In this document: positions 43,619 through 64,000 of the stretch, in pieces
How positions within the stretch are numbered: the first letter of the stretch is position 1
Layout of the letters: the number at the start of each line of letters is the position of its first letter
Source: Thalassobaculum sp. OXR-137
GTDB taxonomy: Bacteria > Pseudomonadota > Alphaproteobacteria > Thalassobaculales > Thalassobaculaceae
Direction of reading: 5' to 3'
Length of the DNA stretch: 64,000 nt
NCBI RefSeq assembly: GCF_034377285.1
Contig: NZ_CP139715.1
Location: 4,138,001-4,202,000 of the forward strand
Made by a program: the position numbers and the translations under genes
The notes under the pieces: model-generated
Told to the model about the DNA's origin: nothing
Database searches by the model: none
What the model saw: the letters and a program-made list of their open reading frames with translations, nothing else

Positions 43619-43640
43619 GGGCGTTTCCTCAGATATTGGA

Positions 43641-44124: not shown

Positions 44125-44137
44125 AGCCGGGTGTCGA

Positions 44138-45416: not shown

Positions 45417-45433
45417 GAGACCCGTCGGGTCTC
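45417..45433 (-). terminator. Hairpin after PAS-domain gene
   Basis: A perfect 7-bp stem (gagaccc / gggtctc) with a 3-base loop begins 3 bases after the minus-strand stop of the PAS protein gene and separates it from the CoA-transferase gene. Confidence 0.5.
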
Positions 45434-45436
45434 TGC

Positions 45437-46018
45437 TCACGGTTCCGGGGAGAATTCCGTGTAGGTGATCCAGGTCCAGATCCGATCCACCTGGCCGGAC
45501 TCGTTGCCGAGGATCGGCATGACGATCCGGCGGTAGCGCTCGAACATCTGCCGGCTTTCGATCATCGAGATCCGCTGGCCGCTGTAGCAGCTGCAGGTTT
45601 CAACGACCTGGCGGTAGATCGCGACGTCACGGGTGGAATCCGCACCGAAGGCTTCCTCCAGCGTCAGCCCCTTGAGATCCCGGCCGGCGAAATCGACCAG
45701 TTGCGTGCCCATGAGCCGGTATCGGAACTGCAGCGGTCCCGCTTCCGGCCGCTCGACATCGAACATGATGGTGGTCGGCAGATAGCTCGGAAAGTCGATC
45801 GGCGGGTCGATATCGTCGCGCCGGGGCGCCGGTCCGCCCCGGGCGGCCGCCTTCCAGTAGTCGAACAGCCGAAGAAGCTGCGGATTGTCCAGGGACGCGC
45901 CGTCCGATTGCGACGACAACCAGATCGCCCGCTCTTCCAGATCCTTCATGCCAGGGTCACGCTTTCGCAGATGTCGGACAGTCTCACCCCAATCGATGAC
46001 TCCTACACCGTTAACCAT
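45437..46018 (-). CDS. PAS domain protein (PAS_5 family)
   Basis: This 193-residue protein matches the alphaproteobacterial PAS_5 family (PF07310): LLRLFDYWKAAARGGPAPRRDDID near residue 48 (in parts DYWKAAARGG and PRRDDIDP), FRYRLMGTQLVDFAGRDLKG and the C-terminal RIVMPILGNE. It has no output domain, so it probably signals through partner contacts. The ATG at 46018 is used; the ATG at 45949 is possible because residues before it are unconserved-looking. Confidence 0.75.
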   Translation of the reverse strand: MVNGVGVIDWGETVRHLRKRDPGMKDLEERAIWLSSQSDGASLDNPQLLRLFDYWKAAARGGPAPRRDDIDPPIDFPSYLPTTIMFDVERPEAGPLQFRYRLMGTQLVDFAGRDLKGLTLEEAFGADSTRDVAIYRQVVETCSCYSGQRISMIESRQMFERYRRIVMPILGNESGQVDRIWTWITYTEFSPEP

Positions 46019-46081
46019 GGACTTCAAACCGCTTCCCGGCGAATGCTAGCCCTTCTCTGACCAAGACTGAACGGCCCATCC

Positions 46082-47221
46082 ATGACCGACCCGAATCGCA
46101 TCCCCGCCGTCTTCATCCGAGGCGGTACCAGCAAGGGCGTCTTCTTCCACGCCCGCGACCTGCCCGCCGACCAGGCGGCACGGGACGCCCTGTTCCTGAC
46201 GGTGATCGGCAGCCCGGACCCTTACGGCCGCCAGTTGGACGGGATGGGCGGCGGCTATTCCTCGGTTTCCAAGGCGGTGATCATCGCCCCGTCGGAGCGC
46301 GACGACGCCGATGTGGACTTCACCTTCGCCCAGGTGGTGGTGGACAAGCCGCTGGTCGACTACGCCCAGACCTGCGGCAACCTCTCCAGCGCGGTCGGCC
46401 CCTTCGCGGTGGACGAAGGGCTGGTGTCGGTGCCCGACGGGCCGACGGTGGTGCGGGTGTTCAACACCAACACCTCGAAGATCTACCACGCCCATTTCGA
46501 GGTGCGCGGCGGACGGGCGGTGGAGGTCGGCGACTACGTGCTGGCCGGGGTGTCGGGCAGTGCCGCCCTGGTGCGCCTCGACTATGTGCATCCGGGCGGG
46601 GCGATGACCCGGGCCTTCCTGCCCACGGGCAACGCCGTCGACAGCTTCGAGGTGGCGGGGATCGGGCGGGTGGAATCCTCCCTGGTGGACGCGACCAACC
46701 CGGTCGTGTTCGTGGATGCCGCCGCCTTCGGCAAGACCGGCACGGAGCACCCGGACGCTCTGGACGCGGACAAGGCCTTCATGGCGGCGATGGACGACCT
46801 GCGGCGTCAGGCGGGTGTCGCCATGGGCATGGCCGAACGGCCCCAGGACGTGCCGCTGTCCAACCCGAAGATCGCCATCCTGGCCGGACCGGCGGATTTC
46901 ACCACCATCGCCGGGGAGCCGGTCCCCGCCGCCGACCACGACATCTTGATCCGCATCCTTTCGATGGAGAAATGCCACAAGGCGGTGACCGGGACGGGCG
47001 CGATGTGCCTGTCGGCGGCCTGCGGGGTGGTGGGCTCTGTGCCGCATCGCCTGCGCCGGGGGAGCGACCCGAAGGTCCGGCTGGCCTCGCCCTCGGGGAT
47101 CGTGGAGCTGGCGGCCGATGTGGGACAGGCGGCGGACGGCACCTGGGAGGCGCGCGCCATCTCCGTGGAACGCACCCAGCGGCGCCTGATGGAAGGCTGG
47201 GTGCGTCTGCCGCACGGGTGA
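46082..47221 (+). CDS. PrpF-family isomerase
   Basis: This 379-residue protein has the diaminopimelate-epimerase-like PrpF fold. The start IPAVFIRGGTSKGVFFH is diagnostic, with GNLSSAVGPFAVDEGLV and KCHKAVTGTGAMCLSAA later. Relatives isomerise aconitate/methylaconitate or 4-oxalomesaconate. No prpB, prpC or acnD is nearby, so the pathway is uncertain and an aromatic-ring-cleavage tautomerase is as likely. It is divergent from the PAS gene and converges on a FadJ-like gene. Confidence 0.88.
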   Translation: MTDPNRIPAVFIRGGTSKGVFFHARDLPADQAARDALFLTVIGSPDPYGRQLDGMGGGYSSVSKAVIIAPSERDDADVDFTFAQVVVDKPLVDYAQTCGNLSSAVGPFAVDEGLVSVPDGPTVVRVFNTNTSKIYHAHFEVRGGRAVEVGDYVLAGVSGSAALVRLDYVHPGGAMTRAFLPTGNAVDSFEVAGIGRVESSLVDATNPVVFVDAAAFGKTGTEHPDALDADKAFMAAMDDLRRQAGVAMGMAERPQDVPLSNPKIAILAGPADFTTIAGEPVPAADHDILIRILSMEKCHKAVTGTGAMCLSAACGVVGSVPHRLRRGSDPKVRLASPSGIVELAADVGQAADGTWEARAISVERTQRRLMEGWVRLPHG

Positions 47222-47237
47222 TCCGTTTTCTCTAACC

Positions 47238-47318
47238 CACTCCCCGGATTTATTCCGGGGCAAGACTTCAGCTTGCGCGCACGGCTCAGGCGTTGCCCCG
47301 GAATAAATCCGGGGAGTG
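47238..47318. repeat. Family A intergenic foldback repeat, copy 3
   Basis: Arms at 47238-47263 and 47293-47318 are a perfect 26-bp inverted repeat (cactccccggatttattccg and on), with each arm itself self-complementary. The element fills the convergent gap between the prpF-like and FadJ-like genes, 16 bases after one stop, and could end transcription from both sides. Confidence 0.85.
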
Positions 47319-47353
47319 AGCGTACCTTACGAGGGCGGGCAAGGGGACCGGGA

Positions 47354-49471
47354 TCAGACGTCCCCGAACCCCTTGCCCTCTTCCGCCAGCTTCAGCAGCA
47401 GCGGGCTCGGGGCCATCCAGGGGCCGTGGGCCTTTTCGAAGGCCTGGAGCTTCGCCGCGATGGTCTTCAGCCCCACCTTGTCGGCCCAGAACATCGGACC
47501 GCCGCGGTAGCGCGGGAAGCCGTAGCCGTGCATCCACACCGCATCGATGTCGCTGGCCCGCAGGGCGATGCCCTCGTCCAGGATCTTCGCGCCCTCGTTC
47601 ACCAGCGGGTAGAGGCAGCGCTCCAGGATCTCCTCGTCGGACACCGATCGGCGCTCAATGCCCAGCTCCTTTGACGTCTCGACGATGATCGCCTCGACCT
47701 CGGGATCGGGCTGCGGCGTCCGGCCGTCGGCATAGGCGAACCAGCCCTTGCCGGTCTTCTGTCCGAACCGGCCGAGATCGCAGATCTTGTCGGCGACGGT
47801 GCCGGAATAGCGCCCGTTGGATGGCTTGCCGCCGTTGGCCTTGATCTGCTCCTGACGCACCCGCCAGCCGACATCGTTGCCGGCCAGATCGCACATGGCG
47901 AACGGTCCCATGGGCATGCCGAAATCGTACAGCACCCGGTCCACGTCCTGGGGCAGCGCGCCCTCCTCCACCAGGAACATCGCCTCGCGCAGATACTGGT
48001 GCAGCATCCGGTTGCCGACGAAGCCGTGGCAGACCCCGACCAGCACGCCGACCTTGCCCAGGGTCTTGGACAGGTCCATGACCGTGGCGATCACGTCGGC
48101 AGCGGTCTTCTCGCCGCGCACGTTCTCCATCAGCCGCATGACGTTGGCCGGGCTGAAGAAGTGGGTCCCGATCACGTCCTGCGGCCGCTGGGTGGCCGCG
48201 GCGATCTCGTTCACGTCGAGCGTCGACGTGTTCGTCGCCAGGATCGCGCCAGGCTTGCAGATGCCGTCGAGCCTGGCGAACAGCTGCTTCTTCACGGCCA
48301 TGTCCTCGAACACGGCCTCCACCACCATGTCGACATCCGCCAGCGCCGCCATGTCGGTGGTGCCGGTGATCAGGCCCATGCGTTTGTCCATTGCCGCCTG
48401 GGCCAGCCGGCCCTTGGAGACGGTGGCGGCGTAGTTCTTCCTGATCTTCTCGATACCCGCGTCCAGAGCCGCCTGCTCACTCTCGACCACCGTCACCGGC
48501 AGGCCGGCATTGGCGAAGACCATGGCGATCCCCCCACCCATGGTGCCGCAGCCCACGACGCCGACCTTCTGCACCGGCCGGGTCGGGGTGTCCTTGGGCA
48601 CGTCGGGGATCTTGGCCACCTCGCGCTCGGCGAAGAAGGCGTGGCGCATGGACTGCGCCTCCACCGCGTTGACCAGTTGCTCGAACTCGGCGCGCTCGAA
48701 CTTCAGCCCCTCGGCGAGGTCGAGACGGGTCGCGGCCTCCACGCAGCGCACACAGGCATAGGGCGCGTTCATGCCGCGCGCCCGCTTGGCCATGGATTTG
48801 CGGAAGTCGTCGAACAGCCCCGGATTGTCCTTGGCCTCCTGCAGCTTGTCGGTGCGCTGGCCCGAGCGGGGCAGCGGCGCGTCCGACGCGGCAAGCCGTT
48901 CGGCGGCGGCGACGGCCGCATCGATCACCGCGGCGACGTCGCCGTCCACCAGTTCGTCGACTATACCGGCCTCATAGGCCTCCTTCTCGGAGATCAGCCG
49001 GCCGGAGACGATCAGCTCCAGCGCCTTGGACACCCCGGCGACCCGCGGCATGCGCTGGGTTCCGCCGGCGCCCGGCAGGATGCCGAGGGTGACCTCGGGC
49101 AGGCCGAGCTTGGTCTTCGGCCCGCAGACCCGGTAGTGGCAACCCAGCGCCAGCTCCATGCCGCCGCCGGCCGCCACGCCGTGAATGGCGGCGACCACCG
49201 GCTTGTCGAGGCCTTCCATGTCGTCGAGGATCGGCGTCAGACGGCGCACATGCTCCGGAGGGGTGGTGCCGAACTCGCGGATGTCGGCGCCGGCGCAGAA
49301 CATCCGCCCGTCGCCGGTCAGCACGATCCCGTCGACCTCCGGATCGCCACCTAGCCTGGCGACCGCCGCGTCCAGCCCTTCGCGCACCGGCCAGCCCAGG
49401 CCGTTCACCGGCGGATTGTTCAGCCGCAGCAGCGCGATACGCCCACGGCGCTCTTCGATCACGGCGCTCAT
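47354..49471 (-). CDS. Bifunctional enoyl-CoA hydratase/3-hydroxyacyl-CoA dehydrogenase (FadB/FadJ-like)
   Basis: This 705-residue protein joins an N-terminal crotonase domain (residues 1-190; CAGADIREFG, LPEVTLGILPGAGGTQR with the catalytic Glu) to 3-hydroxyacyl-CoA dehydrogenase domains (VGVVGCGTMGGGIAMVFANAG near 300; GTHFFSPANVMRLMENV with the catalytic His; GFVGNRMLHQY). It carries out two steps of beta-oxidation. GAGAGGAAACGAG precedes the ATG at 49471. It is divergent from an acyl-CoA synthetase gene 121 bases away, a sensible functional pair. Confidence 0.94.
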   Translation of the reverse strand: MSAVIEERRGRIALLRLNNPPVNGLGWPVREGLDAAVARLGGDPEVDGIVLTGDGRMFCAGADIREFGTTPPEHVRRLTPILDDMEGLDKPVVAAIHGVAAGGGMELALGCHYRVCGPKTKLGLPEVTLGILPGAGGTQRMPRVAGVSKALELIVSGRLISEKEAYEAGIVDELVDGDVAAVIDAAVAAAERLAASDAPLPRSGQRTDKLQEAKDNPGLFDDFRKSMAKRARGMNAPYACVRCVEAATRLDLAEGLKFERAEFEQLVNAVEAQSMRHAFFAEREVAKIPDVPKDTPTRPVQKVGVVGCGTMGGGIAMVFANAGLPVTVVESEQAALDAGIEKIRKNYAATVSKGRLAQAAMDKRMGLITGTTDMAALADVDMVVEAVFEDMAVKKQLFARLDGICKPGAILATNTSTLDVNEIAAATQRPQDVIGTHFFSPANVMRLMENVRGEKTAADVIATVMDLSKTLGKVGVLVGVCHGFVGNRMLHQYLREAMFLVEEGALPQDVDRVLYDFGMPMGPFAMCDLAGNDVGWRVRQEQIKANGGKPSNGRYSGTVADKICDLGRFGQKTGKGWFAYADGRTPQPDPEVEAIIVETSKELGIERRSVSDEEILERCLYPLVNEGAKILDEGIALRASDIDAVWMHGYGFPRYRGGPMFWADKVGLKTIAAKLQAFEKAHGPWMAPSPLLLKLAEEGKGFGDV

Positions 49472-49592
49472 CTCGTTTCCTCTCGGGTTTGGTCTTTTCC
49501 GTTGCGTCTTCGATATCAGGCTGCGCCGGACCTTGCCAGACGACACGAAGCCCGCGACGCTATCGAAAAAATACAACCGGGAGGAGACGGGC

Positions 49593-51134
49593 GTGACAAT
49601 GGTCAATCTGGCCCATGCGCTGGAGGCCTCGGCGGCGCTGTATCCGGCGCGCGAGGCCGTGGTCTGTGGCCCCCGTCGACTGACCTACCGGGAGCTCGAC
49701 CGCGCAGCGAGCCGGCTGGCCGCCGGATTGGCGGATCGCGGCATCGGTCCGGGCAGCATCGTGGCGCTGGCCTGCCCCAACCTCCCCGCCTTCCCCATCG
49801 CCTATTTCGCCATCCTGAAGACCGGCGCCACCGTGCTGCCGGTCAGCCTGCTGCTGAAGGCCGACGAGATCGCCTACATGCTCGGCCATTCGAAAGCCGC
49901 CGCCTTGCTGTGCCATGTGGGCTCCGAGACGGCGCAGATCGGCCGGGAGGGGCTGGCGGCGTTCGAGCGGACGCAGAGTTGCGCGCACTTCGCCTGGATC
50001 GCCGCGGAAGACGGGTCCCGGCCGGTGGACGGGCATCCGTCCCTGGACGACCTCGCGGCCGAAGTGGACGCATTCGACACCGTCAACCGCTCGGCCGCCG
50101 ACACCGCCGTGGTGGTCTACACATCGGGCACGACTGGACGGCCCAAGGGGGCGGAGCTGACCCATTCCAACCTGCTGATCCACGCGCTGATGATCCGCAA
50201 CAACGGAACCTGGGACAGCGACGAGGTGCTGCTGGTGGCCCTGCCCCTCTTCCACATCTTCGGCCAGATCTGCCAGATGGCGGCCGGACTGTCCGGCGGG
50301 GCGACCCTGGTGCTGGTACCGAAGTTCGATGCCGCCACGGTCCTGCGGCTGATGCGGAGCGAGGGTGTCACCCGGTTCTCCGGCGTGCCGACCATGTACT
50401 GGGCGATGCTGAACCACGCCGAAAAGGAGGGCATCGGGGCCGAGGCCTTCGCCAGCATCCGGGGCGCGACCTCGGGCGGGGCGTCCATGCCGGTGGATAT
50501 CATGCGCCGGTTCGACGCCCGCTTCGGCACCGAGATCCGCGAGGGCTACGGGCTGAGCGAGACCTCGCCGGCGGCCACCACCCATGCGCCGGGCATGCCG
50601 CGCAAGCCGGGCTCGGTGGGAACCCCGCTCTGGGGCGTGCAGGTGCGGATCGTGGACGATGACGGTAACCCGATGCCGACCGGCGAACGCGGCGAGGTGG
50701 TCGTGCGCGGCCACTGCGTGATGAAGGGGTATCTGAACGACCCGGAGGCGACGGCAGAGGCGTTCCGTGGCGGCTGGTTCCACACCGGCGATATCGGCCT
50801 TCTGGATGCGGACGGCTATCTGTTCATCGTCGACCGCAAGAAGGAGATGATCATCCGCAACGGGATGAACGTCTATCCGCGCGAGGTGGAGGAGATCCTG
50901 ATCTCCCACCCGGAGATCTCCCTGGTCGCGGTGATCGGCGTGCCGCATGAGGAGCACGGCCAAGAGGTCAAGGCGGTCGCCGTGCGGGCGCCCGGGTCGG
51001 CGGTCTGCGAAAGCAGCCTCATCGCCTGGGCGCGGGACCAGATGGGGGCGCACAAGTATCCGCGCATCGTGGAGTTCCGGGATGCGCTGCCGATGAACGC
51101 GACGGGAAAGATCCTGAAGCGGGAGCTGAGTTAG
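49593..51134 (+). CDS. Acyl-CoA synthetase (AMP-forming)
   Basis: This 513-residue ANL-superfamily ligase activates a carboxylic acid to its CoA thioester. Motifs are VVYTSGTTGRPKGAELTH, GYGLSETSP, GWFHTGDIG, the hinge DRKKEMIIRNGMNVYP and the catalytic Lys in NATGKILKREL. It resembles long-chain fatty-acid and feruloyl-CoA ligases. GGAGGAG lies 6 bases before the GTG at 49593; the ATG at 49599 is an alternative. It is divergent from the FadJ-like gene, supplying its substrates in principle. Confidence 0.93.
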   Translation: MTMVNLAHALEASAALYPAREAVVCGPRRLTYRELDRAASRLAAGLADRGIGPGSIVALACPNLPAFPIAYFAILKTGATVLPVSLLLKADEIAYMLGHSKAAALLCHVGSETAQIGREGLAAFERTQSCAHFAWIAAEDGSRPVDGHPSLDDLAAEVDAFDTVNRSAADTAVVVYTSGTTGRPKGAELTHSNLLIHALMIRNNGTWDSDEVLLVALPLFHIFGQICQMAAGLSGGATLVLVPKFDAATVLRLMRSEGVTRFSGVPTMYWAMLNHAEKEGIGAEAFASIRGATSGGASMPVDIMRRFDARFGTEIREGYGLSETSPAATTHAPGMPRKPGSVGTPLWGVQVRIVDDDGNPMPTGERGEVVVRGHCVMKGYLNDPEATAEAFRGGWFHTGDIGLLDADGYLFIVDRKKEMIIRNGMNVYPREVEEILISHPEISLVAVIGVPHEEHGQEVKAVAVRAPGSAVCESSLIAWARDQMGAHKYPRIVEFRDALPMNATGKILKRELS

Positions 51135-52190: not shown

Positions 52191-53570
52191 GTGTCGGGCA
52201 AGACCGTCCATATCGGCTGCGGAGCCGGCTTCGCCGGAGACCGCTGGGACGCCGCCGTTCCCGTCGTCGCCACGCTCGCCACCCGCGAGGGGCCGCGTTA
52301 CCTGATGTACGAGACCCTGGCCGAGCGCACCCTGGCGCTGGCCCAGCAGGCCAAGATCGAGGACCCGTCGAAGGGCTACTCGCCGTATCTGGAGCGCATC
52401 CTGCGCCCGGTCCTGGCCAAGGCGAAGGCGGCCCGCATCAAGGTCGTCTCCAATTTCGGCGCCGCCAATCCGGGCGCCGGGGCGAAGCGCATCCTGGAGA
52501 TGGCCAGGGAGGAAGGCATCGACGGCCTCAAGGTCGCCGTCGTGGAAGGCGACGACCTGACCGCGGTGATGAGCGAAGGCGACATCCGCGGCCACAAGGC
52601 GGTGGAAGGACTGGAGATGCCCGAGGGCAAGCTGGTCGCCGCCAACGTCTATCTCGGAGCGCAGGCCATCGCGGACGCGCTTGCCATGGGCGCCGACGTG
52701 GTGGTGGTCGGCCGCTGCGCCGATCCGGCACTGGCGCTGGGCCCTCTGATCCACGAGCACGGCTGGAGCCTGGAGGATCTCGACCGCATCGCCGCCGGCA
52801 CCATGTGCGGCCATCTGCTGGAATGCGGCGCCCAGGTCACCGGCGGCTACTTCGCCGATCCCGGCTACAAGGACGTCCCCGATTTCGGCCATGTCGGCTT
52901 CCCGATCGCCGAGGTGGAGGCCGACGGCACCGTCACCATAACCAAGGCCGACAAGACCGGCGGGCTGGTCAGCCACCGCACGGTGAAGGAACAGCTGCTT
53001 TACGAGATGCACGACCCGGCCAACTACCTCACCCCCGACGTGGTGCTGGACATCACCGGCGTGGCCATCGAGGAGGTCGGCCCCGACCGGGTGAAGATCA
53101 CCGGGGCGAAGGGCAAGCAGCGTCCGCCGACCCTGAAGGCGACGGTCAGCTTCGAAGGCGGCTGGATGGGCGAAGGCGAGATCACCTATGCCGGCCCGAA
53201 CGCCCGGCGCCGGGCGGAGCTGGCGATCGAGGCGCTGCAGACCCGGGTGCGCGATCTCGGCACCAACTGGCCGCTGCGCTTCGACCTGATCGGCACGGTC
53301 TCCACCTTCGACGGAGACGGCGGCGACCTGCGGAGCGCCGCGGACTGGGATACCGACGGCGAATACCGGGTCCGGATGGCGACCAAGGGGCCGGACAGGC
53401 AGATGGCCCAATGGATCGCCGACGAGGTGCTGTCGCTCTACTGCTCGGGTCCCGCCGGCGGCGGCGGGGTGCGGCACCGCATCGTGCCGCAGATCACCAC
53501 GGCCTCCATCCTGGTCGACCGCGCCAAGGTCTCGGCCTCCGCCCGTCTCGTCGAGGAGACTGCCCGATGA
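52191..53570 (+). CDS. AtuA family protein (DUF1446)
   Basis: This 459-residue protein resembles AtuA of acyclic terpene utilisation (DUF1446). The start VHIGCGAGFAGDRWDAAVP and the VVSNFGAANPGAGAKRIL, GRCADPALALGPLIHE stretches are typical. The biochemical role of AtuA is not settled; it accompanies geranyl-CoA-type carboxylation and beta-oxidation genes. The gene starts with GTG and overlaps its small partner by ATGA. No carboxylase genes are here, but acyl-CoA genes lie just upstream. Confidence 0.86.
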   Translation: MSGKTVHIGCGAGFAGDRWDAAVPVVATLATREGPRYLMYETLAERTLALAQQAKIEDPSKGYSPYLERILRPVLAKAKAARIKVVSNFGAANPGAGAKRILEMAREEGIDGLKVAVVEGDDLTAVMSEGDIRGHKAVEGLEMPEGKLVAANVYLGAQAIADALAMGADVVVVGRCADPALALGPLIHEHGWSLEDLDRIAAGTMCGHLLECGAQVTGGYFADPGYKDVPDFGHVGFPIAEVEADGTVTITKADKTGGLVSHRTVKEQLLYEMHDPANYLTPDVVLDITGVAIEEVGPDRVKITGAKGKQRPPTLKATVSFEGGWMGEGEITYAGPNARRRAELAIEALQTRVRDLGTNWPLRFDLIGTVSTFDGDGGDLRSAADWDTDGEYRVRMATKGPDRQMAQWIADEVLSLYCSGPAGGGGVRHRIVPQITTASILVDRAKVSASARLVEETAR

Positions 53571-53944
53571 CCGACGAGAAGAACCGCCGCGTGCTGCGCG
53601 TCCCGCTGCACGAGGTCGCCCATGGCCGCACCGGCGACAAGGGCAACCGGGTCAATATCAGCCTGATTCCGTATCACGAGGCTGCCTTCCCCTATCTGCG
53701 CGAGCAGGTGACGGAGGCGGCGGTCAAGCAGCACTTCGCCCATAAGGGCGCGAGCGCGGTGACCCGCTATGAGCTGCCGACCTTCCCCGCCTTCAACTTC
53801 GTCATCGACGACGTGCTGGAAGGCGGGGTGAACGGGGCGCTGAACCTGGATACCCACGGCAAGTCCTTCGCCTTCCACCTGCTGGCGATGGAGGTGGACA
53901 TGCCCGAGGACCTGGTGCTGCACCCCGAGAAAGGCGCCCGCTGA
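53567..53944 (+). CDS. AtuA-associated small protein
   Basis: This 125-residue protein matches the domain found fused to the C-terminus of longer AtuA proteins. LHEVAHGRTGDKGNRVNISLIPY (in parts VAHGRTGDKGN and NISLIPY) is its hallmark, and LNLDTHGKSFAFHLLAMEV closes it. The overlap with the preceding gene shows that the two chains are made together and probably form one protein complex. Confidence 0.83.
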   Translation: MTDEKNRRVLRVPLHEVAHGRTGDKGNRVNISLIPYHEAAFPYLREQVTEAAVKQHFAHKGASAVTRYELPTFPAFNFVIDDVLEGGVNGALNLDTHGKSFAFHLLAMEVDMPEDLVLHPEKGAR

Positions 53945-54011: not shown

Positions 54012-55262
54012 TCAGTCGTGCCCGGCCTCGGCGGGCGTGGCCGCACGGGTGTCGGTGCTCGGGGACTGATCCTTCAGCGCCCAGGCCAGGGCCGTCATGC
54101 CGAGCACGATCGAGACGATCGTTCCGCCCAGCACGCCGATACGCACAGCCGACTGGAGTGCCGGATCGGAGAAGGCCAGCGTGCCGATGAACAGCGACAT
54201 GGTGAAGCCGATGCCCGCAAGTTGGGACACGCCGTAGAGCTTCAGCCAGTTCACGCCGTCCGGAAGGTTGGCCCAGCCGAGGCGCACCGCGATCCAGCAG
54301 GCGCCGAGAATGCCGATCGGCTTGCCGACCACCAGACCGGCGGCGATGCCCAGGGGCACGGGGGCAAACAGATCCGAGACGGACATCCCGGCAAGGGGGA
54401 CGCCCGCATTGGCGAAGGCGAACAGCGGCAGGATCATGAACGCGACCCACGGGTGCAGCACGTGCTCCAGCACCTCCAGGGGAGAACCGCCTTCACGGAA
54501 CTCGCCTTCCTTGCCGCGCAGCGGCAGCGTGAAGGCGACGACAACGCCGGCCAGCGTGGCATGGACGCCGGACTTCAGCACGGCAACCCAGATCACCAGG
54601 CCGACCACGATGTAGAGGCCGATCCGCTTGACCCCGAGCAGGTTCATCGCCAGCAGCACGGCGAAGCCGGCGGCGGCGATGCCGAGAGCGCCCAGGGACA
54701 GGTTGGCCGTATAGAACAGGGCGATGACGACGATTGCGCCGAGATCGTCCAGCACCGCCAGGGCCAGCAGGAAGATCTTCAGACCCGCCGGCGCCCGCGA
54801 GCCGACCAGTGCGAGCGCGCCGAGCGCGAAGGCGATGTCGGTGGCCGCCGGGATCGCCCAGCCGCCGAGGGTCTCCGGCGTGGCGGCGTTCAGGGCGACG
54901 TAGATCAGCGCCGGCACCGCCATGCCGCCGATGGCGCCGAACGCCGGAAGGCTCGCGGCCCGCAGCGACGACAGCTTGCCCTGGATCACCTCGCGTTTGA
55001 TCTCGAGGCCGACGAGGAAGAAGAAGATCGCCATCAGGCCGTCGTTGATCCAGAGGAGCAACGGCTTCTCGATCCCGACATCCTCGACGGTCACCGAGAC
55101 GAAGGCGAGCAGCAGGCGATCGTACAGTCCGGCAAACAGGGAATTATCGGCGATCAGGGCGATCACCGCGGCGATGGCGAGCAGAACGCCCGGCGCCGCT
55201 TCGTGATGGAAAAGTGCGGCAAGCGTAGGCTTCCCTGCCGCGAGATTGGGGGTCGTCGTCAT
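54012..55262 (-). CDS. nhaA: Na+/H+ antiporter NhaA
   Basis: This 416-residue inner-membrane antiporter expels sodium in exchange for protons. The ion-binding Asp pair is in LAVLDDLGAIVVIALFY, and FFFLVGLEIKRE, IPAATDIAFALGAL and the GIGFTMSLFIGTLAF helix are family hallmarks. The ATG at 55262 has GGAG 6 bases upstream; further upstream in-frame codons are unlikely to be used. Its presence fits a marine or saline habitat. It is a single-gene unit. Confidence 0.95.
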   Translation of the reverse strand: MTTTPNLAAGKPTLAALFHHEAAPGVLLAIAAVIALIADNSLFAGLYDRLLLAFVSVTVEDVGIEKPLLLWINDGLMAIFFFLVGLEIKREVIQGKLSSLRAASLPAFGAIGGMAVPALIYVALNAATPETLGGWAIPAATDIAFALGALALVGSRAPAGLKIFLLALAVLDDLGAIVVIALFYTANLSLGALGIAAAGFAVLLAMNLLGVKRIGLYIVVGLVIWVAVLKSGVHATLAGVVVAFTLPLRGKEGEFREGGSPLEVLEHVLHPWVAFMILPLFAFANAGVPLAGMSVSDLFAPVPLGIAAGLVVGKPIGILGACWIAVRLGWANLPDGVNWLKLYGVSQLAGIGFTMSLFIGTLAFSDPALQSAVRIGVLGGTIVSIVLGMTALAWALKDQSPSTDTRAATPAEAGHD

Positions 55263-55332
55263 GGCGATCTCCATACCCGCGGATTGGCGCCCGCGATGCT
55301 TTTGAGAGTCTATATCCTCCCTATTTAGGTAT

Positions 55333-56037
55333 TCAGGCGCTGTTCGCAAACTTGAATACGGTCCCGGCCTTCAATTTCTCCTGAACGGTGCGCTCCTGAG
55401 CGTTCAGACGTTCGATGTCCGCCGGCTTCATCTCGTCGGCCAGCGCTTTCATCGCGTCGCTCCATTTCGGCAGATTGTTGTCGATTTCAGCCTTCACCCG
55501 CCGCATCTCGTTGAGCTTGTCGAACTCGCTCTGGATCCGCTCCTCGATGCCGCTGTTGCGGAGCTCGACATAGTCGCGGTGGTTTGGAAGGACCTGGGCG
55601 ATCGCCGGGATCACGGCGTTGGCGTAGTTCTGGTCCGCATCGGTCCGCGAGGCCGACTGGATGCTCAGGAACGACCAGCCCTGGACCGAGCCGAGACGGT
55701 ACGAGCCGAGATTGCAGACGTCGAAGACATACTGAGCGGGATAGTTCTGGGCCAGTTCCTCCAGGGTCCGCAGCGCCTTGGTGGAATTCACGAAGGTTTC
55801 GCGCATCGCCCGCAGCAGCACGTCGACCTTGGCGCGGTGGCGGGAAAAGAACGCGTGGTCCTCTTTCAACCTATTATAGTTTCTCTCCTGCTTGCGGATC
55901 TCCGAGCCAAGTTTTTCGGCAGATTTGTACCCTGCATCGAGCAACTTCACGTAAGAGCGGAAGGCCTCCACAGCGTCTACGCCCTTGGTGGCTTCCTTCA
56001 GCAACTTTTCGAGATTGTTTGGAAGAGTTGAGGCCAT
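55333..56037 (-). CDS. Coiled-coil hypothetical protein in low-GC islet
   Basis: This 234-residue protein is not one I recognise. Residues 1-75 are helical and charged (LEKLLKEATKGVDAVEAF, SEIRKQERNYNRLKED), a middle part (SYRLGSVQGWSFLSIQSASR) looks globular, and a second coiled coil follows (IEERIQSEFDKLNEMRRV). No signal peptide or membrane segment is seen. Base use is lower in GC than neighbours (28 of 60 bases at 55861-55920), and the upstream 165 bases are also AT-richer, pointing to recent acquisition. Confidence 0.6.
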   Translation of the reverse strand: MASTLPNNLEKLLKEATKGVDAVEAFRSYVKLLDAGYKSAEKLGSEIRKQERNYNRLKEDHAFFSRHRAKVDVLLRAMRETFVNSTKALRTLEELAQNYPAQYVFDVCNLGSYRLGSVQGWSFLSIQSASRTDADQNYANAVIPAIAQVLPNHRDYVELRNSGIEERIQSEFDKLNEMRRVKAEIDNNLPKWSDAMKALADEMKPADIERLNAQERTVQEKLKAGTVFKFANSA

Positions 56038-56202: not shown

Positions 56203-58503
56203 ATGCATCGTTTTGAAGACGCCCGACTGCTGACCGGCGGCGGCCGTTACGTCGAGGATGTCCGCCCGGCCGACGCCCTGTCGATGCGCGTACTGCGCTC
56301 CCCCGCCGCGCATGGGCGGATCTCGGCTCTTGAGATCGACTCGGCCCGCGAATTGCCGGGCGTGGTCGCGATCCTGACGGCGGCGGATCTGGCGGCGTTC
56401 GGAATCGGCCCGATGACGGCGCTGTCGCCGGTGAACAATGCGGACGGCTCTCCCATGGCCGAGCCGCGCCGGCCGGTCCTGGCCGAGGGTGAGGTCAAAT
56501 ATGTCGGCCAGCCGATCGCCGCCATCCTCGCCGAATCCGACTCGACCGCAGAAGACGCCCTGGAGGCGATCCTGCTGGATATCGATGAGCTGCCCAGCGT
56601 CACCGATCCGGAATCGGCCTTCGACGGCGCGGTGCAGATCTGGCCGGAGGTCCCGGGCAACGTCGCCATCGACTGGGAGAAGGGCAACCGGGAGGAGACC
56701 GAGGCGGCCTTCGCCGCCGCCGCCCATGTGATCGAGCTGACCGTGCGGCACCCGCGCGTCGCCATCCAGCCGATCGAGACCCGCGGCTGCATTGGCGCCT
56801 TCGATCCGGAAACCGGCCGCTACACGCTCACCACCCCGTCCCAGGGCGTGATGTCGCTCAAGGGCGCGATGGCCACGTATCTGGGCGTCGACGCCGACCT
56901 CGTGCGCGTCGTCACCGAGGATGTGGGCGGCAGCTTCGCCGTCAAAATCTGGCCCTATCCGGAGCAGGTGCTGGTCCTGGCCGCCGCCAAGGCGACCGGA
57001 CGGCCCGTCGCCTGGCAGGCCTCGCGCACCGAGAGTTTCGTGTCCGATGCCATGGGCCGCGGCCGGGTCGACCGTGCCGCCCTCGCCCTGGATGCGGAGG
57101 GCAGGTTCCTCGGCTTCAAGATCGACGCGCTCGCCGATATCGGCGCCTATTGGAACGCGGTGAACCCGGCCATCGTCACCGGCGGCGCGGTGCGGACCTT
57201 CGGCCACTGCTACCGGATCCCGGGGATGCACTACCGGGTGCGCGGCGTCTTCACCAACGCCATGACCACCGATGCCTATCGCGGGGCCGGCAAGCCGGAG
57301 AGCGGCGGCACCCTGGAACGGCTGATCGACGTCGCCGCCGACCGGCTGGGCATCGACCGGATGGACCTGCGTCGGCGCAACCTGATCACCCCCGATCTGC
57401 TGCCCTATACGACGGCGATGAGCGAGACCATCGACGGCGGCGACTTCCCCAACATCTTCGCCCGCATCCACGAGATCAGCGAGGCCGAGGGTATCGGCCG
57501 GCGCAAGCAGGACAGCGAGCGGGCGGGGAAGCGGCGCGGCTTCGCCATCGGCACCCACATGCACGCCACCGGCGGGTCGGTCGCCGAGCGCTCGGAAGTG
57601 CGCGCCCTGCCCGACGGCTCGGTACTGGTGCGCACCGGCACCCAGGATTCCGGCCAGGGCCACCGCACCGCGCTCGCCATGGTCGCCGCCGAGGCGCTGG
57701 AGATCCCGGTCGAGCGCATCCGCGTCGAACAGGGCGACAGCGACTTTCTCGCCAAGGGCGGCGGCACCGGCGGCTCCAACCTGATGCCGATCGCCGCCAA
57801 CACCGTCCACCGCACCGCCCTGCACATGCTCGACAAGGCCAAGCAGGTCGCCGGCCACTTGCTGGAGGCGGCTCCCGTCGACATCGAATACGGGCTGGGC
57901 GACTTCCGCATCGCCGGTACCGACCGGAAGATCAGCCTCGCCGACGTCGCCGCCGGCTGGGATGGCATCCCGCCGGAACAGTATGACGGCGATCTCGGCA
58001 CCGGCTGCATGGCCCAGCTCGATTTCGAAGGCCTGCACACCACCTTCCCCAACGGCTCCTATGCCGTGGAGGTGGAGGTCGACCCCGACACCGGCCATGT
58101 CCGCATCGACCGGTTCAGCGGCGTCGACGATCTCGGTCGGGTGATCAACGAGCAGACCGCCCGCGGCCAGCTCCATGGCGGAATCGGCCAGGCCATCGGC
58201 GAGGCGCTGATGGAGGTGATGGTGCACGATCCGGACTCCGGACAGGTGCTGTCCGGCTCGCTGATGGACTACGCCCTGCCCCGGGCCGACGACATGCCGC
58301 TGTTCGACCTGCACTGGGCACCGACCGCCAGCCCGAACAGCCTGATCGGCGCCAAGGGCGTGGGCGAGGTCTCCTCCATCGGCGCGCCCGGGGTGATCGT
58401 GAATGCCGCGCTCGACGCCCTGCGCCCGCTCGGCGTGGAGCATGTCGACCTGCCGCTGACCCCGGAAAAGGTCTGGCGCGCCATCCACGACGCCCGGTCC
58501 TGA
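56203..58503 (+). CDS. Xanthine dehydrogenase/CoxL-family molybdopterin-binding subunit
   Basis: This 766-residue protein is the large, molybdenum-cofactor-binding subunit of a xanthine-oxidase-family hydroxylase. It starts with FEDARLLTGGGRYVEDVRPA and contains GGSFAVKIWPYPEQ, AYRGAGKPESGG (normally AYRGAGRPE), GTQDSGQGHRTALAMV, GGTGGSNLMP and the catalytic Glu in GAKGVGEVSSIGAPGV. The CO-dehydrogenase Cys motif (AYxCSFR) is absent, so it is not a true CO oxidiser. No FAD or 2Fe-2S subunit lies beside it. It leads an apparent operon with a ThDP enzyme and an SDR. Substrate unknown. Confidence 0.85.
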   Translation: MHRFEDARLLTGGGRYVEDVRPADALSMRVLRSPAAHGRISALEIDSARELPGVVAILTAADLAAFGIGPMTALSPVNNADGSPMAEPRRPVLAEGEVKYVGQPIAAILAESDSTAEDALEAILLDIDELPSVTDPESAFDGAVQIWPEVPGNVAIDWEKGNREETEAAFAAAAHVIELTVRHPRVAIQPIETRGCIGAFDPETGRYTLTTPSQGVMSLKGAMATYLGVDADLVRVVTEDVGGSFAVKIWPYPEQVLVLAAAKATGRPVAWQASRTESFVSDAMGRGRVDRAALALDAEGRFLGFKIDALADIGAYWNAVNPAIVTGGAVRTFGHCYRIPGMHYRVRGVFTNAMTTDAYRGAGKPESGGTLERLIDVAADRLGIDRMDLRRRNLITPDLLPYTTAMSETIDGGDFPNIFARIHEISEAEGIGRRKQDSERAGKRRGFAIGTHMHATGGSVAERSEVRALPDGSVLVRTGTQDSGQGHRTALAMVAAEALEIPVERIRVEQGDSDFLAKGGGTGGSNLMPIAANTVHRTALHMLDKAKQVAGHLLEAAPVDIEYGLGDFRIAGTDRKISLADVAAGWDGIPPEQYDGDLGTGCMAQLDFEGLHTTFPNGSYAVEVEVDPDTGHVRIDRFSGVDDLGRVINEQTARGQLHGGIGQAIGEALMEVMVHDPDSGQVLSGSLMDYALPRADDMPLFDLHWAPTASPNSLIGAKGVGEVSSIGAPGVIVNAALDALRPLGVEHVDLPLTPEKVWRAIHDARS

Positions 58504-58547
58504 CAGACATCATCGACAAAAAGACGACCGAAAACGAGGAAACGACC

Positions 58548-60209
58548 ATGACCGCCTCTCCCTCCAAGACCAGCAGCCCGATCTCCGGTGGGGAGGCGAT
58601 GGTGAACGCGCTGACCGCCCACGGCATCGACACCGTGTTCGGCCTGCCCGGCATCCAGCTCGACCACCTGTTCAACGCCTTCCACGACCATTCCAACGAG
58701 ATCCGCGTGCTCAACGCCCGCCACGAGCAGGGCACCGCCTACATGGCCTTCGGCTGGGCCCAGTCGACCGGCAAGGTCGGCACCTACGCCGTGGTTCCGG
58801 GGCCGGGCATCCTGAACACCGGGGCCGCGCTCTCGACCGCCTATGGCTGCAGCGCCAAGGTGCTGGCGCTGACCGGCCAGATCCTGTCCGGGGCCATGGG
58901 CCGCGGCTACGGCATGCTGCACGAGATCCCCGACCAGCTCGGCATCCTGGAGCGGCTGACCAAGTTCGCCGGCCGGGCAGACCATCCCAGCGAGGTCCCC
59001 GGCATGGTCGCCGACGCTTTCCGCGCCATGTACTCCGGCCGTCCGCGCCCCGCTGCGGTGGAAGTACCGATGGACGTGCTGGAGCAGCGCGCCATGGTCG
59101 CCCCCGTCGCGCCCTACGAGATCCGCCATCCGGAGGCCGATCCCGAGCTGATCGAGGCCGCCGCCAAGCTGCTGGGCAAGGCGAAGAACCCGATGATCCT
59201 GGTCGGCGGCGGCGCCTATGACGCGGTCGAGGCGGTGCGCGAACTATCGGCCGCCCTGGAAGCGCCGGTCGTCTCCTATCAGAACGGCCGCGGCGTGATC
59301 GACGAGCGCTCGCCCTACGCCCTGCCGCACCCGGCAGGTGCGGAATACTGGTCGAGCTGCGACGTGGTCATCGGCATCGGCTGCCGCATGCAGCCGGAGC
59401 GGATGATGTGGGGCACCGATGACGAGCTGAAGGTCATCCATATCGACCTCGACCCGACCGAACTGGTCCGCATCGCCAAGCCGGAAATCGGCATCCTGGC
59501 CGACGCCGACACCGCCACACGGGCGATCCTCGACGCCCTGCCGAAGCATAATGCGGCCCGCGCCTCCCGCGCCGAGGAGTTCGCGGCGCTCAAGGCCCGC
59601 TACTGGCAGCGGTTCCACGACATCTGCGGCCCGCAGATGGCCTTCCTGGACGCGCTGCGCCGGGCGCTGCCGGAGGACGGCTACTTCGTCGACGAGTTCA
59701 CCCAGGTCGGCTATGTCAGCCGCGTCGGCTTCCCGGTCTACGGGCCGCGCATGATGGTCACCCCGGGCTACCAGGGGACACTGGGCTACGGCTACGCGAC
59801 CGCGCTGGGCGTCCAGGCGGCCCATCCGGACAAGCCGGTGCTGTCGGTGAACGGCGATGGCGGCTTCATGTTCACCTCCAACGAGATCGCAACGGCGGTC
59901 CATCACGGTCTGCCGCTGGTGGCGGTGGTGTTCGCCGACGGCGCCTATGGCAATGTGCTGCGGATGCAGAAGAACCTGCACGACAACCGGGTCATCGCCT
60001 CGACCTTCACCAATCCGGATTTCGTCAAGCTGGCCGAGGCCTATGGCGCCGACGGCCGCCGGGCCGAGACCCCGGAGGCGCTGGAGGTCCAGGTGAAGGA
60101 GGCCTTCGCCGCCCGCCGCCCGACCATCATCGAGGTTCCGGTCGGCGAGATGCCCGAACCCTGGGATGTGATTAGACCGACCGCCACGCGCGGCTCTAAG
60201 AAGGGCTGA
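58548..60209 (+). CDS. Thiamine-diphosphate-dependent enzyme (acetolactate synthase-like)
   Basis: This 553-residue enzyme has the three-domain ThDP layout: the activating Glu in NARHEQGTAYMAFGWA, a central Rossmann-like domain, and the ThDP/Mg motif beginning GDGGFMFTSNEIATAV. The motif ends ADGAYGNV, where many members have NN. It resembles acetolactate synthase, sulfoacetaldehyde acetyltransferase and benzoylformate decarboxylase-like proteins. It lies 44 bases after the CoxL-like gene and 24 before an SDR gene, suggesting decarboxylation or C-C cleavage in the same pathway. Exact reaction unknown. Confidence 0.85.
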   Translation: MTASPSKTSSPISGGEAMVNALTAHGIDTVFGLPGIQLDHLFNAFHDHSNEIRVLNARHEQGTAYMAFGWAQSTGKVGTYAVVPGPGILNTGAALSTAYGCSAKVLALTGQILSGAMGRGYGMLHEIPDQLGILERLTKFAGRADHPSEVPGMVADAFRAMYSGRPRPAAVEVPMDVLEQRAMVAPVAPYEIRHPEADPELIEAAAKLLGKAKNPMILVGGGAYDAVEAVRELSAALEAPVVSYQNGRGVIDERSPYALPHPAGAEYWSSCDVVIGIGCRMQPERMMWGTDDELKVIHIDLDPTELVRIAKPEIGILADADTATRAILDALPKHNAARASRAEEFAALKARYWQRFHDICGPQMAFLDALRRALPEDGYFVDEFTQVGYVSRVGFPVYGPRMMVTPGYQGTLGYGYATALGVQAAHPDKPVLSVNGDGGFMFTSNEIATAVHHGLPLVAVVFADGAYGNVLRMQKNLHDNRVIASTFTNPDFVKLAEAYGADGRRAETPEALEVQVKEAFAARRPTIIEVPVGEMPEPWDVIRPTATRGSKKG

Positions 60210-60233
60210 CGCCGACCGATCCGGAGGAACCCC

Positions 60234-60917
60234 ATGTCCGACAAGACCGCGCTGATCATCGGCGCGGGCGCCGGCCTCAGCGCCTCGCTCGCCCGCAAGT
60301 TCGCCGCCAACGGCTACAGGGTGGCGCTCGCCGCCCGCAACGCCGGCAAGCTGGCCGATCTCGCCAAGGAGACCGGGGCGACGGCCTATGCCTGCGATGC
60401 CGCCTCGCCGACGGACATGGCGGATCTCTTCGCCTCGGTGGACCGCGACATCGGGGAGCCGGAGGTCGTGGTCTACAACCCGTCCGCCCGGGTCCGTGGG
60501 CCGGTGCACGAGACCGACCCGGAGAAGGTGCGCGACGCCCTGCTGATCACCGGCTACGGCGCCTATCTGGCGGCGCAGGAGGCGGTGAAGCGGATGCTGC
60601 CCAAGAAGCATGGTGCCCTGCTCTTCACCGGCGCCTCGGCCGGGGTGAAGGGCTTCCCCAACTCCTCCAGCTTCGCCATGGGCAAGTTCGCGCTGCGCGG
60701 CCTCGCCCAGGCCCTGGCCCGGGAACTGCACCCCCAGGGCATCCATGTGGGGCATTTCGTAATCGACGGCGGCATCGCCTCCTCCTACGGCGCGAAGGAG
60801 GACGACAGCACGCTGAGCCCCGACGCGATCGCGGAGACCTACTGGCACTTCGTCCAGCAGCACCGCAGCGCCTGGGCTTGGGAAGTCGAACTCCGCCCCT
60901 GGGTCGAGAAGTTCTAG
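60234..60917 (+). CDS. Short-chain dehydrogenase/reductase with Phe in place of catalytic Tyr
   Basis: This 227-residue SDR-fold protein has a glycine-rich cofactor loop IIGAGAGLSASLA and the Ser of TGASAG. The YxxxK motif reads FAMGK (SSSFAMGKFALRGLAQALA), so the catalytic Tyr is Phe while Lys is kept. The end IHVGHFVIDGGI is typical of a group of small SDRs. It is the third gene after the CoxL-like and ThDP genes, preceded by GGAGGAACCCC. It may be a non-classical reductase or a binding protein. Confidence 0.85.
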   Translation: MSDKTALIIGAGAGLSASLARKFAANGYRVALAARNAGKLADLAKETGATAYACDAASPTDMADLFASVDRDIGEPEVVVYNPSARVRGPVHETDPEKVRDALLITGYGAYLAAQEAVKRMLPKKHGALLFTGASAGVKGFPNSSSFAMGKFALRGLAQALARELHPQGIHVGHFVIDGGIASSYGAKEDDSTLSPDAIAETYWHFVQQHRSAWAWEVELRPWVEKF

Positions 60918-61755: not shown

Positions 61756-62325
61756 ATGGATGTTCGCACACTCTGCCTCGCGGTCCTGACCAAGGGCGAC
61801 GCGACCGGGTACGAAATCAAGAAGATGTTCGAGGAAGGTCCGTTCGCGCATTTCCAGAGCGCGAGCTTCGGGTCGATCTATCCCGCCCTGTCCCGGCTGC
61901 TGTCCGAAGGCCTCGTTGAGGCGCGCGCCCAGGAACAGGACGGCCGACCGGACAAGAAGGTTTACTCGATCACCCCGGCCGGCAACGCGCTGGTCGACGC
62001 CGCGCTGACCGTGACGCCGGAAGCGGACACCTTCCGCTCCGACTTCCTGTTCCTGCTGTTCTTCGCCACCCGCCTGCCCGAAGCCCGCGTGATCGAGCTG
62101 ATCGACCAGCGTGTCGACATGTACCGGGCCAAGCAGAACCACATCGCCGAGCAGATGGCCGCGCGGGAACAGAACGACTGCACCGGCGATCCCGGCCGCG
62201 AGACCGTGGCCGGTTTCGGCATCTCCCTGTATCGGGCCGCCGCCGACTATCTGGAAAGCCAGAAAGGCCCCTTGATCGCGGAACTGCGCGCCTATCGCGC
62301 GCGGCGCCCTGAAGCCGCAGAATAG
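61756..62325 (+). CDS. PadR-family transcriptional regulator
   Basis: This 189-residue protein has the PadR winged helix: TLCLAVLTKGDATGYEIKKMFEEG, SFGSIYPALSRLLSEGLVEAR and KKVYSITPAG (given in parts). A C-terminal helical region (from about residue 90) serves for dimerisation. It lies 9 bases before an RND efflux adaptor gene, so it most likely represses its own operon and responds to a drug or phenolic compound. The ATG at 61756 has GAGG upstream; an ATG at 61735 in frame is possible. Confidence 0.88.
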   Translation: MDVRTLCLAVLTKGDATGYEIKKMFEEGPFAHFQSASFGSIYPALSRLLSEGLVEARAQEQDGRPDKKVYSITPAGNALVDAALTVTPEADTFRSDFLFLLFFATRLPEARVIELIDQRVDMYRAKQNHIAEQMAAREQNDCTGDPGRETVAGFGISLYRAAADYLESQKGPLIAELRAYRARRPEAAE

Positions 62326-62334
62326 GAATCCGGC

Positions 62335-63435
62335 ATGCGCATCAAAGGATCCGTCGTTCTCGCCTGTCTCCTGGCGATCGGGGCCGTGGCCTGGATCGCC
62401 TCGGGACAGATGGGCGAAAAGCCGGCCACCGCCTCCCAGCCGCCGCCGAAGATCACCGCGCCGCCGGCCGATGCCATCACCCGCGTCCGGGTGAAGGAGA
62501 CGTCCGCCTCGCCCTTCGTGGCCTCCCTGGTGAGCTCGGGCCATACCGAGGCGGTGCGCATCGTCACCCTGAAGGCGGAAACCGCCGGACGGATCGTCGC
62601 CACGCCGGCGATCAAGGGCACCGTCGTCGAGAAAGGTGCCGAGATCGTCCGGATCGACGAGGCGGACCGTGCCGCCCGGCTGGAGGAGACGAAGGCGCGG
62701 ATCGCCCAGCGTCAGCTGGAATACACCGCCGCCTCCAAGCTCGCCGCCAAGGGGTTCCAGGCGGAAACCACCCGTGCCGGCGCCAAGGCCGAACTCGAGG
62801 CCGCCAAGTCGGAACGCCGGACCATCGAAGTCGATCTGGCGCGCACCCGCATCGAAGCCCCGGTCCGCGGCGTCCTGGACGACCGAATGGTCGAAATCGG
62901 CGACTACGTCGCGGTCGGTGACGAGGTGGCGCAGGTGGTCGAACTGAACCCCCTTCTGATCACCGCCCAGGTGGCCGAGCGGCAGGCGCCGCAGATCGAA
63001 GTCGGGATGCCGGCCCATGCCCGGCTGTCGACCGGCGACGAAATGATGGGCGTGGTGAGCTATGTCTCGTCGGTGGCCGACAACGAGACCCGCACGTTCC
63101 GCATCGAGATCGAGTTCGACAACCCGAACAACCGCTTCGGCCAGGGGCTCTCGGCCGAGATCACGATCGCCCTGCCCGCCGTCGAGGCCCACCGGGTCAC
63201 CCCGTCGATCTTCCGGCTCGACGAGCTGGGCCGGGTCGGCGTGATGACCGTGGACGCCGAGAACACCGCCCATTTCACGCCGGTCACCATCATCGGGATC
63301 GATGACGGCGGGACCTGGGTCGGCGGCCTGCCGGACAACACGAAGGTGATCGTGGTCGGCCAGGACCTGGTGGCCGACGGAGAGACCGTCGAGCCCGTCA
63401 TGGTCGGCGGAGCGGCCGGAGCCGCCGGCTCATGA
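62335..63435 (+). CDS. RND efflux periplasmic adaptor (membrane fusion protein)
   Basis: This 366-residue adaptor links an inner-membrane RND pump to an outer-membrane channel. It has an N-terminal membrane anchor (residues 7-25), a split lipoyl domain (VKETSASPFVASLVSSGHTE; later APVRGVLDDRMVEIGDYVAVG), a short coiled-coil hairpin, and beta-barrel and membrane-proximal domains. It overlaps the pump gene by ATGA. No outer-membrane factor is visible before the window ends. Confidence 0.92.
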   Translation: MRIKGSVVLACLLAIGAVAWIASGQMGEKPATASQPPPKITAPPADAITRVRVKETSASPFVASLVSSGHTEAVRIVTLKAETAGRIVATPAIKGTVVEKGAEIVRIDEADRAARLEETKARIAQRQLEYTAASKLAAKGFQAETTRAGAKAELEAAKSERRTIEVDLARTRIEAPVRGVLDDRMVEIGDYVAVGDEVAQVVELNPLLITAQVAERQAPQIEVGMPAHARLSTGDEMMGVVSYVSSVADNETRTFRIEIEFDNPNNRFGQGLSAEITIALPAVEAHRVTPSIFRLDELGRVGVMTVDAENTAHFTPVTIIGIDDGGTWVGGLPDNTKVIVVGQDLVADGETVEPVMVGGAAGAAGS

Positions 63436-64000
63436 ACGCGCTGATCTCCGCGGCGCTGTCCCACAGCCGCACCACCCTGTCGGCCCTGCTGCTCATCCTG
63501 ATCGCCGGGACGGTGTCCTATATCGAGATCCCCAAGGAAGCGGATCCGGACATCAACATCCCGATCATCTACGTCTCGATGACCTACGAGGGCATCTCGC
63601 CCGAGGATGCCGAACGTCTGCTCCTGCGTCCGATGGAGCAGGAGCTGCGCGCAATCGAGGGCGTCAAGGAGATGCGCTCGACCGCCTTTGAGGGCGGCGC
63701 GAACGTCACGCTGGAATTCGACGCCGGGTTCGACGCCGACCAGGCGCTGGACGACGTCCGCGCGAAGGTCGACATCGCCAAGCCGGAGCTGCCGGAGGAT
63801 GTCGACGAACCGACGGTGAACGAGGTCAATTTCTCGCTCTTCCCCGTGCTTGTGGTCACCCTGTCCGGCAATGTCGAGGAGCAGGTCCTCCTGCGGACCG
63901 CGCAGCAACTGCGCGACGCGGTGGAAGGCATCCCCTCGGTGCTGGAGGCGAAGCTCACCGGCCAGCGCGAGGAGCTGGTCGAGGTGGTGATCGACCCGGT
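63432..64000 (+). CDS. RND efflux permease, N-terminal part
   Basis: The first 189 residues of an RND pump continue past the window. After a short cytosolic start comes membrane helix 1 (TTLSALLLILIAGTVSYIEI), then the periplasmic porter region with PKEADPDINIPIIYV, SPEDAERLLLRPMEQELR and VTLEFDAGFDADQALDDVR, the usual order for AcrB-like pumps. The start ATG overlaps the adaptor stop. Substrates unknown. Confidence 0.92.
   Translation, partial: MNALISAALSHSRTTLSALLLILIAGTVSYIEIPKEADPDINIPIIYVSMTYEGISPEDAERLLLRPMEQELRAIEGVKEMRSTAFEGGANVTLEFDAGFDADQALDDVRAKVDIAKPELPEDVDEPTVNEVNFSLFPVLVVTLSGNVEEQVLLRTAQQLRDAVEGIPSVLEAKLTGQREELVEVVIDP

Follow-up and report, generated by a model that had tools for sequence, protein, structure and literature searches.

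We describe here a conserved gene set in a 64,000-nucleotide stretch of the Thalassobaculum sp. OXR-137 genome (hereafter the window; positions 4138001-4202000 of contig C1 of the 5.6-Mb genome that we label G000), in which a gene for a CoxL-like molybdenum large subunit stands apart from any gene for its usual electron-transfer partners. The conserved set is AtuA - AtuA_fd - (CoxL) - ThDP - SDR-like, i.e., a pair of AtuA-type genes, the CoxL-like gene, which some relatives lack, and genes for a thiamine diphosphate (ThDP) enzyme and for a protein resembling short-chain dehydrogenases/reductases (SDR). As a tentative explanation, held with somewhat less than even confidence, we propose that the set could encode a route leading from a C-C lyase through a decarboxylase to aldehyde oxidation by the molybdenum subunit, which would pass its electrons to a CoxS/CoxM pair encoded at a distant locus.

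The gene set and its conservation

A first-pass annotation of the window had described a three-gene operon, and its three open reading frames (ORFs) were confirmed in the place and on the strand it gave: an orphan CoxL-like large subunit (56203-58503, plus strand, 766 amino acids, aa), a ThDP enzyme (58548-60209, plus strand, 553 aa) and an SDR-fold protein lacking the catalytic Tyr (60234-60917, plus strand, 227 aa), tightly packed with intergenic gaps of 44 and 24 bases. However, while the order of this trio is real, the conserved set also includes the genes for an AtuA family protein (52191-53570, plus strand, 459 aa; PF07287, 466 bits) and AtuA_fd (53567-53944, plus strand, 125 aa; PF23544, 122 bits), which the first-pass annotation had overlooked. 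These two genes overlap by 4 bases and lie upstream of CoxL (together 52191-53944), with two opposite-strand genes in between.

Orthologues of the CoxL-like protein (52-94% identity) were detected in 19 of the 36 genomes of the family, the OXR-137 genome included. The AtuA-AtuA_fd pair was located upstream of CoxL in 15 of the 17 genomes in which this could be decided (AtuA_fd would fall beyond contig ends in G015 and G020), and the ThDP gene followed CoxL directly in 13 of 18 such genomes, again counting G000 (here G012 ends too early). The search for this order in other genomes, which had been suggested earlier as a check, thus revealed that it is not unique to OXR-137, and because it was found in 13 of the 18 decidable genomes, chance adjacency of CoxL and ThDP was rejected. 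Each genome that had been fetched twice (L017/G025, L018/G026, L020/G010, L022/G020, L023/G018, L027/G009, L084 and L026/G027, L021/G028, L019/G029, L028/G002, L025/G003 and L024/G007) was counted once. A near relative of the strain is Thalassobaculum litoreum, the ThDP proteins being 97% identical. No report on a gene set combining AtuA, AtuA_fd, CoxL, ThDP and SDR genes was found in the accessible part of the open-licence PMC literature.

The spacing between AtuA_fd and CoxL varied among the relatives. In G012, G013 and G022, AtuA, AtuA_fd and CoxL directly adjoin each other on one strand. The window and G025, G026, G027 and G010 carry between AtuA_fd and CoxL a gene which, from its sequence, we take to be NhaA-like (54012-55274, minus strand in the window) and which lies outside the conserved set, together with a small uncharacterised gene (55333-56004, minus strand, start uncertain) that gave no Pfam or NCBIfam match. 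The small gene is present in most, not all, of the relatives; in seven other genomes it occupies this position without the NhaA-like gene, accompanied in G029 by one more ORF. An SDR of this kind was not found downstream of the ThDP gene in G009 and G022. In addition, the CoxL orthologue of G013 (L151, G013:C14:81365-83654) is in two pieces and has an in-frame stop, which points to a pseudogene or to an error in the assembly.

Predicted activities of the encoded proteins

The profile and structure comparisons indicate that AtuA and AtuA_fd are likely the CmlA-like large and CmlB-like small subunits of a C-C lyase releasing a 2-oxo acid. When a profile of 18 AtuA sequences was compared with the PDB, it matched subunit A of citramalate lyase (9erq, E = 1.3e-5), and the next matches reached E = 0.003 over short stretches. 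The AtuA model (mean predicted local distance difference test score, pLDDT, 84) matched chain A of 9evf, a complex of citramalate lyase with adenosine diphosphate and pyruvate, with E = 2.2e-23 in Foldseek and, across 405 residues, a VIA Z of 31.8 and a root-mean-square deviation (rmsd) of 4.0; the runner-up reached Z = 10.4 over 89 residues. For AtuA_fd no PDB sequence match passed; its model (pLDDT 87) matched best to 9evf_B, the small chain of this complex, with a probability of 1.00 and E = 0.012 in Foldseek and with a VIA Z of 8.8 (96 residues, rmsd 2.6), ahead of a runner-up at Z = 6.4. Between them, the two models thus match the folds of both 9evf subunits, chain A and, modestly when taken alone, chain B; the lyase assignment is the stronger because two adjacent genes match both chains of one complex. 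Citramalate lyase converts citramalate to acetate and pyruvate. The pair in the window resembles CmlA/CmlB (9erq, 9evf) in matching both chains and in being encoded by two adjacent genes, but it shares about 20% identity with them, and the genes linked to it encode a ThDP enzyme, an SDR-like protein and CoxL. Nothing connecting AtuA with citramalate lyase was found in the portion of the open-licence PMC literature covered, nor was the publication behind 9evf.

AtuA_fd was also considered as the missing ferredoxin. This possibility was rejected, as the protein contains no Cys in 20 of 22 sequences, the window's own among them, and a single one in the other two, and as the structure that it matches best is that of a lyase subunit; we take its name to refer to a fold. 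The AtuA family (PF07287) is shared with the acyclic terpene utilisation (atu) cluster of Pseudomonas, which also holds geranyl-CoA carboxylase and others. However, the other genes of that cluster are absent from the set described here, and terpene substrates are not indicated.

The ThDP enzyme, which carries the TPP_enzyme_N, M and C domains, belongs to NF006122 (the PRK08266 subfamily; 749.5 bits against a cut-off of 571), a family without an assigned function. Residue Glu60, presumably the ThDP-activating Glu, was invariant in 28 of 28 sequences. The second-best family, and the best-scoring one with an assigned reaction, was a 2-oxo acid decarboxylase, 5-guanidino-2-oxopentanoate decarboxylase (NF005712), but at 365.8 bits the protein remained below its cut-off of 500 and is not a member of it. 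Within 4.5 kb of the relatives of the ThDP enzyme (79 loci) we counted enolase-superfamily proteins (19), aldehyde dehydrogenases (9), aminotransferases (8) and prephenate dehydratases (7), in overlapping classes, each cluster having been named from a single representative; many of the other loci had none of these neighbours. Since most such neighbours make 2-oxo acids or remove aldehydes, this context suggests that the ThDP enzyme is probably a 2-oxo acid decarboxylase. The first-pass annotation had assigned C-C cleavage to it, a role for which AtuA/AtuA_fd is the better candidate.

Among the ThDP relatives, the Caldilineaceae loci L040, L042 and L047 contain two ThDP genes of this family near each other, each preceded by an enolase-superfamily gene. 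In five alphaproteobacterial loci (L032:8757-9922, L033 and L036-L038) the ThDP relative follows a PqqD-like gene and a protein of 199-303 aa, of which the L032 copy (299 aa) gave no Pfam match at E 0.001.

The SDR-like protein (adh_short, 100 bits) lacks the classical YxxxK motif of SDR oxidoreductases: in all 23 sequences compared (18 distinct, 5 duplicates) the catalytic Tyr is replaced by Phe, and the Lys is kept. Because of this replacement ordinary reduction or hydride transfer is unlikely, and with it the reductive step that the first-pass annotation had expected here; in all probability we are not dealing with an ordinary reductase. The CDD subgroup SDR_c10 is described with the same Tyr replacement.

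The CoxL-like protein is a member of the xanthine oxidase family of large subunits, with the molybdenum cofactor (Moco)-subunit domains a/b hammerhead (Ald_Xan_dh_C), MoCoBD_1 and MoCoBD_2 all above the Pfam cut-offs, and its top PDB match over the full length is CoxL of 8uem (E = 1.7e-127). The KGxGE motif, which in the xanthine oxidase family contains the catalytic Glu, was kept in 15 of 15 CoxL orthologues. At the same time, all 15 carry GGSFAxK in place of the GGGFGxK loop, a change not shared by any of the strain's eight further large subunits, and about 20 N-terminal residues that are present in the strain's other CoxL-like subunits are missing from the clade of the window's CoxL. Although the three Moco-subunit domains are common to this protein and carbon monoxide (CO) dehydrogenase (8uem, 1n5w), oxidation of CO was rejected. 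CO-oxidising enzymes feature a Cys-bearing active-site loop; the loop here is DAYRGAGKPE, and the score for CO dehydrogenase is far under the cut-off (453 against 991 bits). A further difference is that CoxS and CoxM do not adjoin it. The top NCBIfam score was obtained with the archaeal-type glyceraldehyde dehydrogenase alpha subunit (NF041018, 489 bits), which belongs to the same family and oxidises aldehydes, but here too the protein stays below the cut-off (790 bits). Another orphan CoxL-like subunit of the strain (L099:8672-11017; G000:C1, approximately 4836.8-4839.1 kb) has KGVGQ in place of the KGxGE seen elsewhere and hence lacks the catalytic Glu.

Orphan large subunits and the CoxS/CoxM pair

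Whole-genome Pfam matches revealed nine large subunits (MoCoBD_2), four FAD_binding_5 and four [2Fe-2S] (Fer2_2) matches in OXR-137, and no flavin adenine dinucleotide (FAD) or [2Fe-2S] gene adjoins the CoxL-like/ThDP/SDR-like trio: all four matches of either type are at loci away from it. The absence of neighbouring partners, reported in the first-pass annotation, was therefore upheld, but it is not special to this operon. Of the other eight large subunits, four proved to be partnered (L100-L103) and four not (L096-L099) when their surroundings, about 20 kb apiece, were inspected; with the window's CoxL this gives five orphans, i.e., five of the six large subunits of its clade. The sixth, L100, is the sole large subunit of this clade in the genome with both CoxS and CoxM adjoining; its CoxS-CoxL-CoxM set is complete and occupies G000:C1:3807593-3810857, at a distance of about 383 kb from CoxL of the window. 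A tree was computed for 23 large subunits. In it, CoxL of the window, 14 orthologues of it, the four other orphans of the strain and L100 formed one group with a support of 100/99, and the three other partnered subunits of the strain were placed outside it on long branches, of which the program warned. The genome contains one XdhC_CoxI match, presumably the expected maturation factor.

The same excess of large subunits was observed throughout the family. Of the 36 genomes searched, 34 had any match, and in all 34 the large-subunit matches outnumbered both partner types, with totals of 311 large, 121 FAD and 144 [2Fe-2S] matches (domain counts, in which one gene may count twice in fragmented genomes). 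For a closer comparison we used the genomes that were at least 95% complete (17), of which G023 and G024 (1.5 Mb, no match) were dropped, leaving 15. Among the matches listed, these contained 71 CoxL-like subunits, retained at no less than 38% identity and more than 480 bits, a cut chosen post hoc after the matches had been viewed; fragments (e.g., at G014:C115) and sequences at 32-36% identity were left out, and the subunit and partner coordinates for the comparison were entered by hand. One subunit per genome was partnered within 8 kb, and 56 of the 71 had neither CoxM nor CoxS within that distance. The partnered subunit had both CoxM and CoxS in 14 of the 15 genomes; G020 shows only CoxS, and its subunit is at the contig start.

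The simplest reading, in our view, is that one CoxS/CoxM pair may serve the large subunits of this clade, and the orphan state of most of them fits such a one-to-many relation between partner pair and large subunits. The first-pass annotation had named partners encoded and co-regulated elsewhere in a known pathway as something that would speak against its reading; this was borne out in part, in that a suitable pair exists. In the class as a whole, large-subunit matches exceeded FAD matches (422 versus 165, a count covering these two types) in 45 of the 48 genomes with any match (77 searched), so the excess is widespread in the class. As proof of sharing, the class-wide counts were nevertheless set aside, since some large-subunit types may need no FAD protein. 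No report of large subunits sharing one CoxS/CoxM pair was recognised in the part of the open-licence PMC literature available, which is weak evidence of novelty.

Interpretation and neighbouring genes

In the route that we tentatively favour, AtuA/AtuA_fd would cleave a hydroxy acid, yielding a 2-oxo acid along with a carboxylate; the 2-oxo acid would then be decarboxylated to an aldehyde by the ThDP enzyme, and the molybdenum subunit would oxidise this aldehyde in the place that is held by an aldehyde dehydrogenase beside some other ThDP relatives, its electrons leaving via the shared CoxS/CoxM made from the L100 locus. With the same reserve, and again short of an even chance, one CoxS/CoxM pair may be the common base through which three to six interchangeable CoxL-type subunits per cell transfer their electrons, at least some of these subunits belonging to catabolic operons of their own. 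New molybdenum oxidases could then arise via duplication of the large subunit alone, and the window's copy would complete a new lyase - decarboxylase - aldehyde oxidation route.

Several observations weigh against this proposal. The lyase match amounts to about 20% identity only, and that between AtuA_fd and 9evf_B is modest taken alone. Many of the ThDP context loci come from related Caldilineaceae metagenome-assembled genomes (MAGs) and are not independent. The shortened N-terminus and the altered GGSFAxK loop of CoxL could change its docking or chemistry, the outgroup of the large-subunit tree carries the long branches mentioned, and some of the 56 unpartnered subunits are situated so close to the end of a contig that a neighbour may lie beyond it. 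G000, with five orphans on one 5.46-Mb contig, and G016, with three orphans on one contig, are free of the last doubt because their orphans are on single-contig chromosomes. The set itself also varies: G028, G029 and G030 carry AtuA-AtuA_fd-CoxL without ThDP alongside (in G028, Thalassobaculum fulvum, the ThDP-SDR genes are about 223 kb away on the same contig), G014 and G015 have CoxL followed by the SDR gene without ThDP, and in G002, G003, G007, G031 and G033, which have no CoxL orthologue (their top CoxL match being 38-40% identical), the AtuA, AtuA_fd, ThDP and SDR genes form a row. Although some of these five are incomplete MAGs, the row has no gap in it. The stable core is thus AtuA, AtuA_fd, ThDP and SDR, and because five family genomes keep the rest of the set without it, CoxL is an addition, tied closest to AtuA_fd.

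The five CoxL-free genomes, and the separate placing of CoxL and AtuA-AtuA_fd in G014 and G009, are what would be expected if the core functioned by itself and CoxL shared only its location or regulation while acting on an unrelated substrate. We consider such a bystander role rather unlikely, roughly one chance in four, since CoxL accompanies AtuA_fd in 15 of 17 decidable genomes and stays with it even in G028-G030, where ThDP is gone. It is less probable still that CoxL works without CoxS/CoxM, using another electron acceptor or catalysing a reaction without net electron transfer. The 56 unpartnered subunits among the 71 and the clade-specific GGSFAxK loop agree with this idea, but all 15 genomes also carry one complete set of the same clade, the KGxGE motif is retained and the neighbouring AtuA_fd is not an iron-sulfur protein. 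The pathway of the first-pass annotation, in which hydroxylation by the molybdenum enzyme, C-C cleavage by the ThDP enzyme and reduction by the SDR would be combined, draws on the adjacency of the trio and the recurrence of its order; it appears very improbable in view of the Phe in the SDR active site, the neighbours of the ThDP family, which indicate 2-oxo acid decarboxylation, and the presence of a better lyase candidate in AtuA/AtuA_fd.

If one CoxS/CoxM pair does serve many large subunits, annotation that expects adjoining partners misreads these enzymes, and the operons of the many large-subunit paralogues in Alphaproteobacteria could be used to place them in pathways. Moreover, the gene set suggests what AtuA-type lyases and the PRK08266 thiamine enzymes, which lack an assigned function, may do, and this can be tested.

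Downstream of the set, here and in many relatives, there are a PadR-type regulator (Pfam) and an efflux pair that we take to be RND-like (window 61756-63998). As they are next to the set in many relatives, they may be co-inherited with it or regulate it. On the other side adjoins a catabolic gene group (window 42665-51134) with a 2-hydroxyacid dehydrogenase, PrpF and an acyl-CoA ligase (Pfam), and with genes that we take to be CaiB-like and FadB-like. An IS21-type pair, consisting of an IstB-like ATPase and a transposase with an integrase core, is located at window positions 25133-27327.

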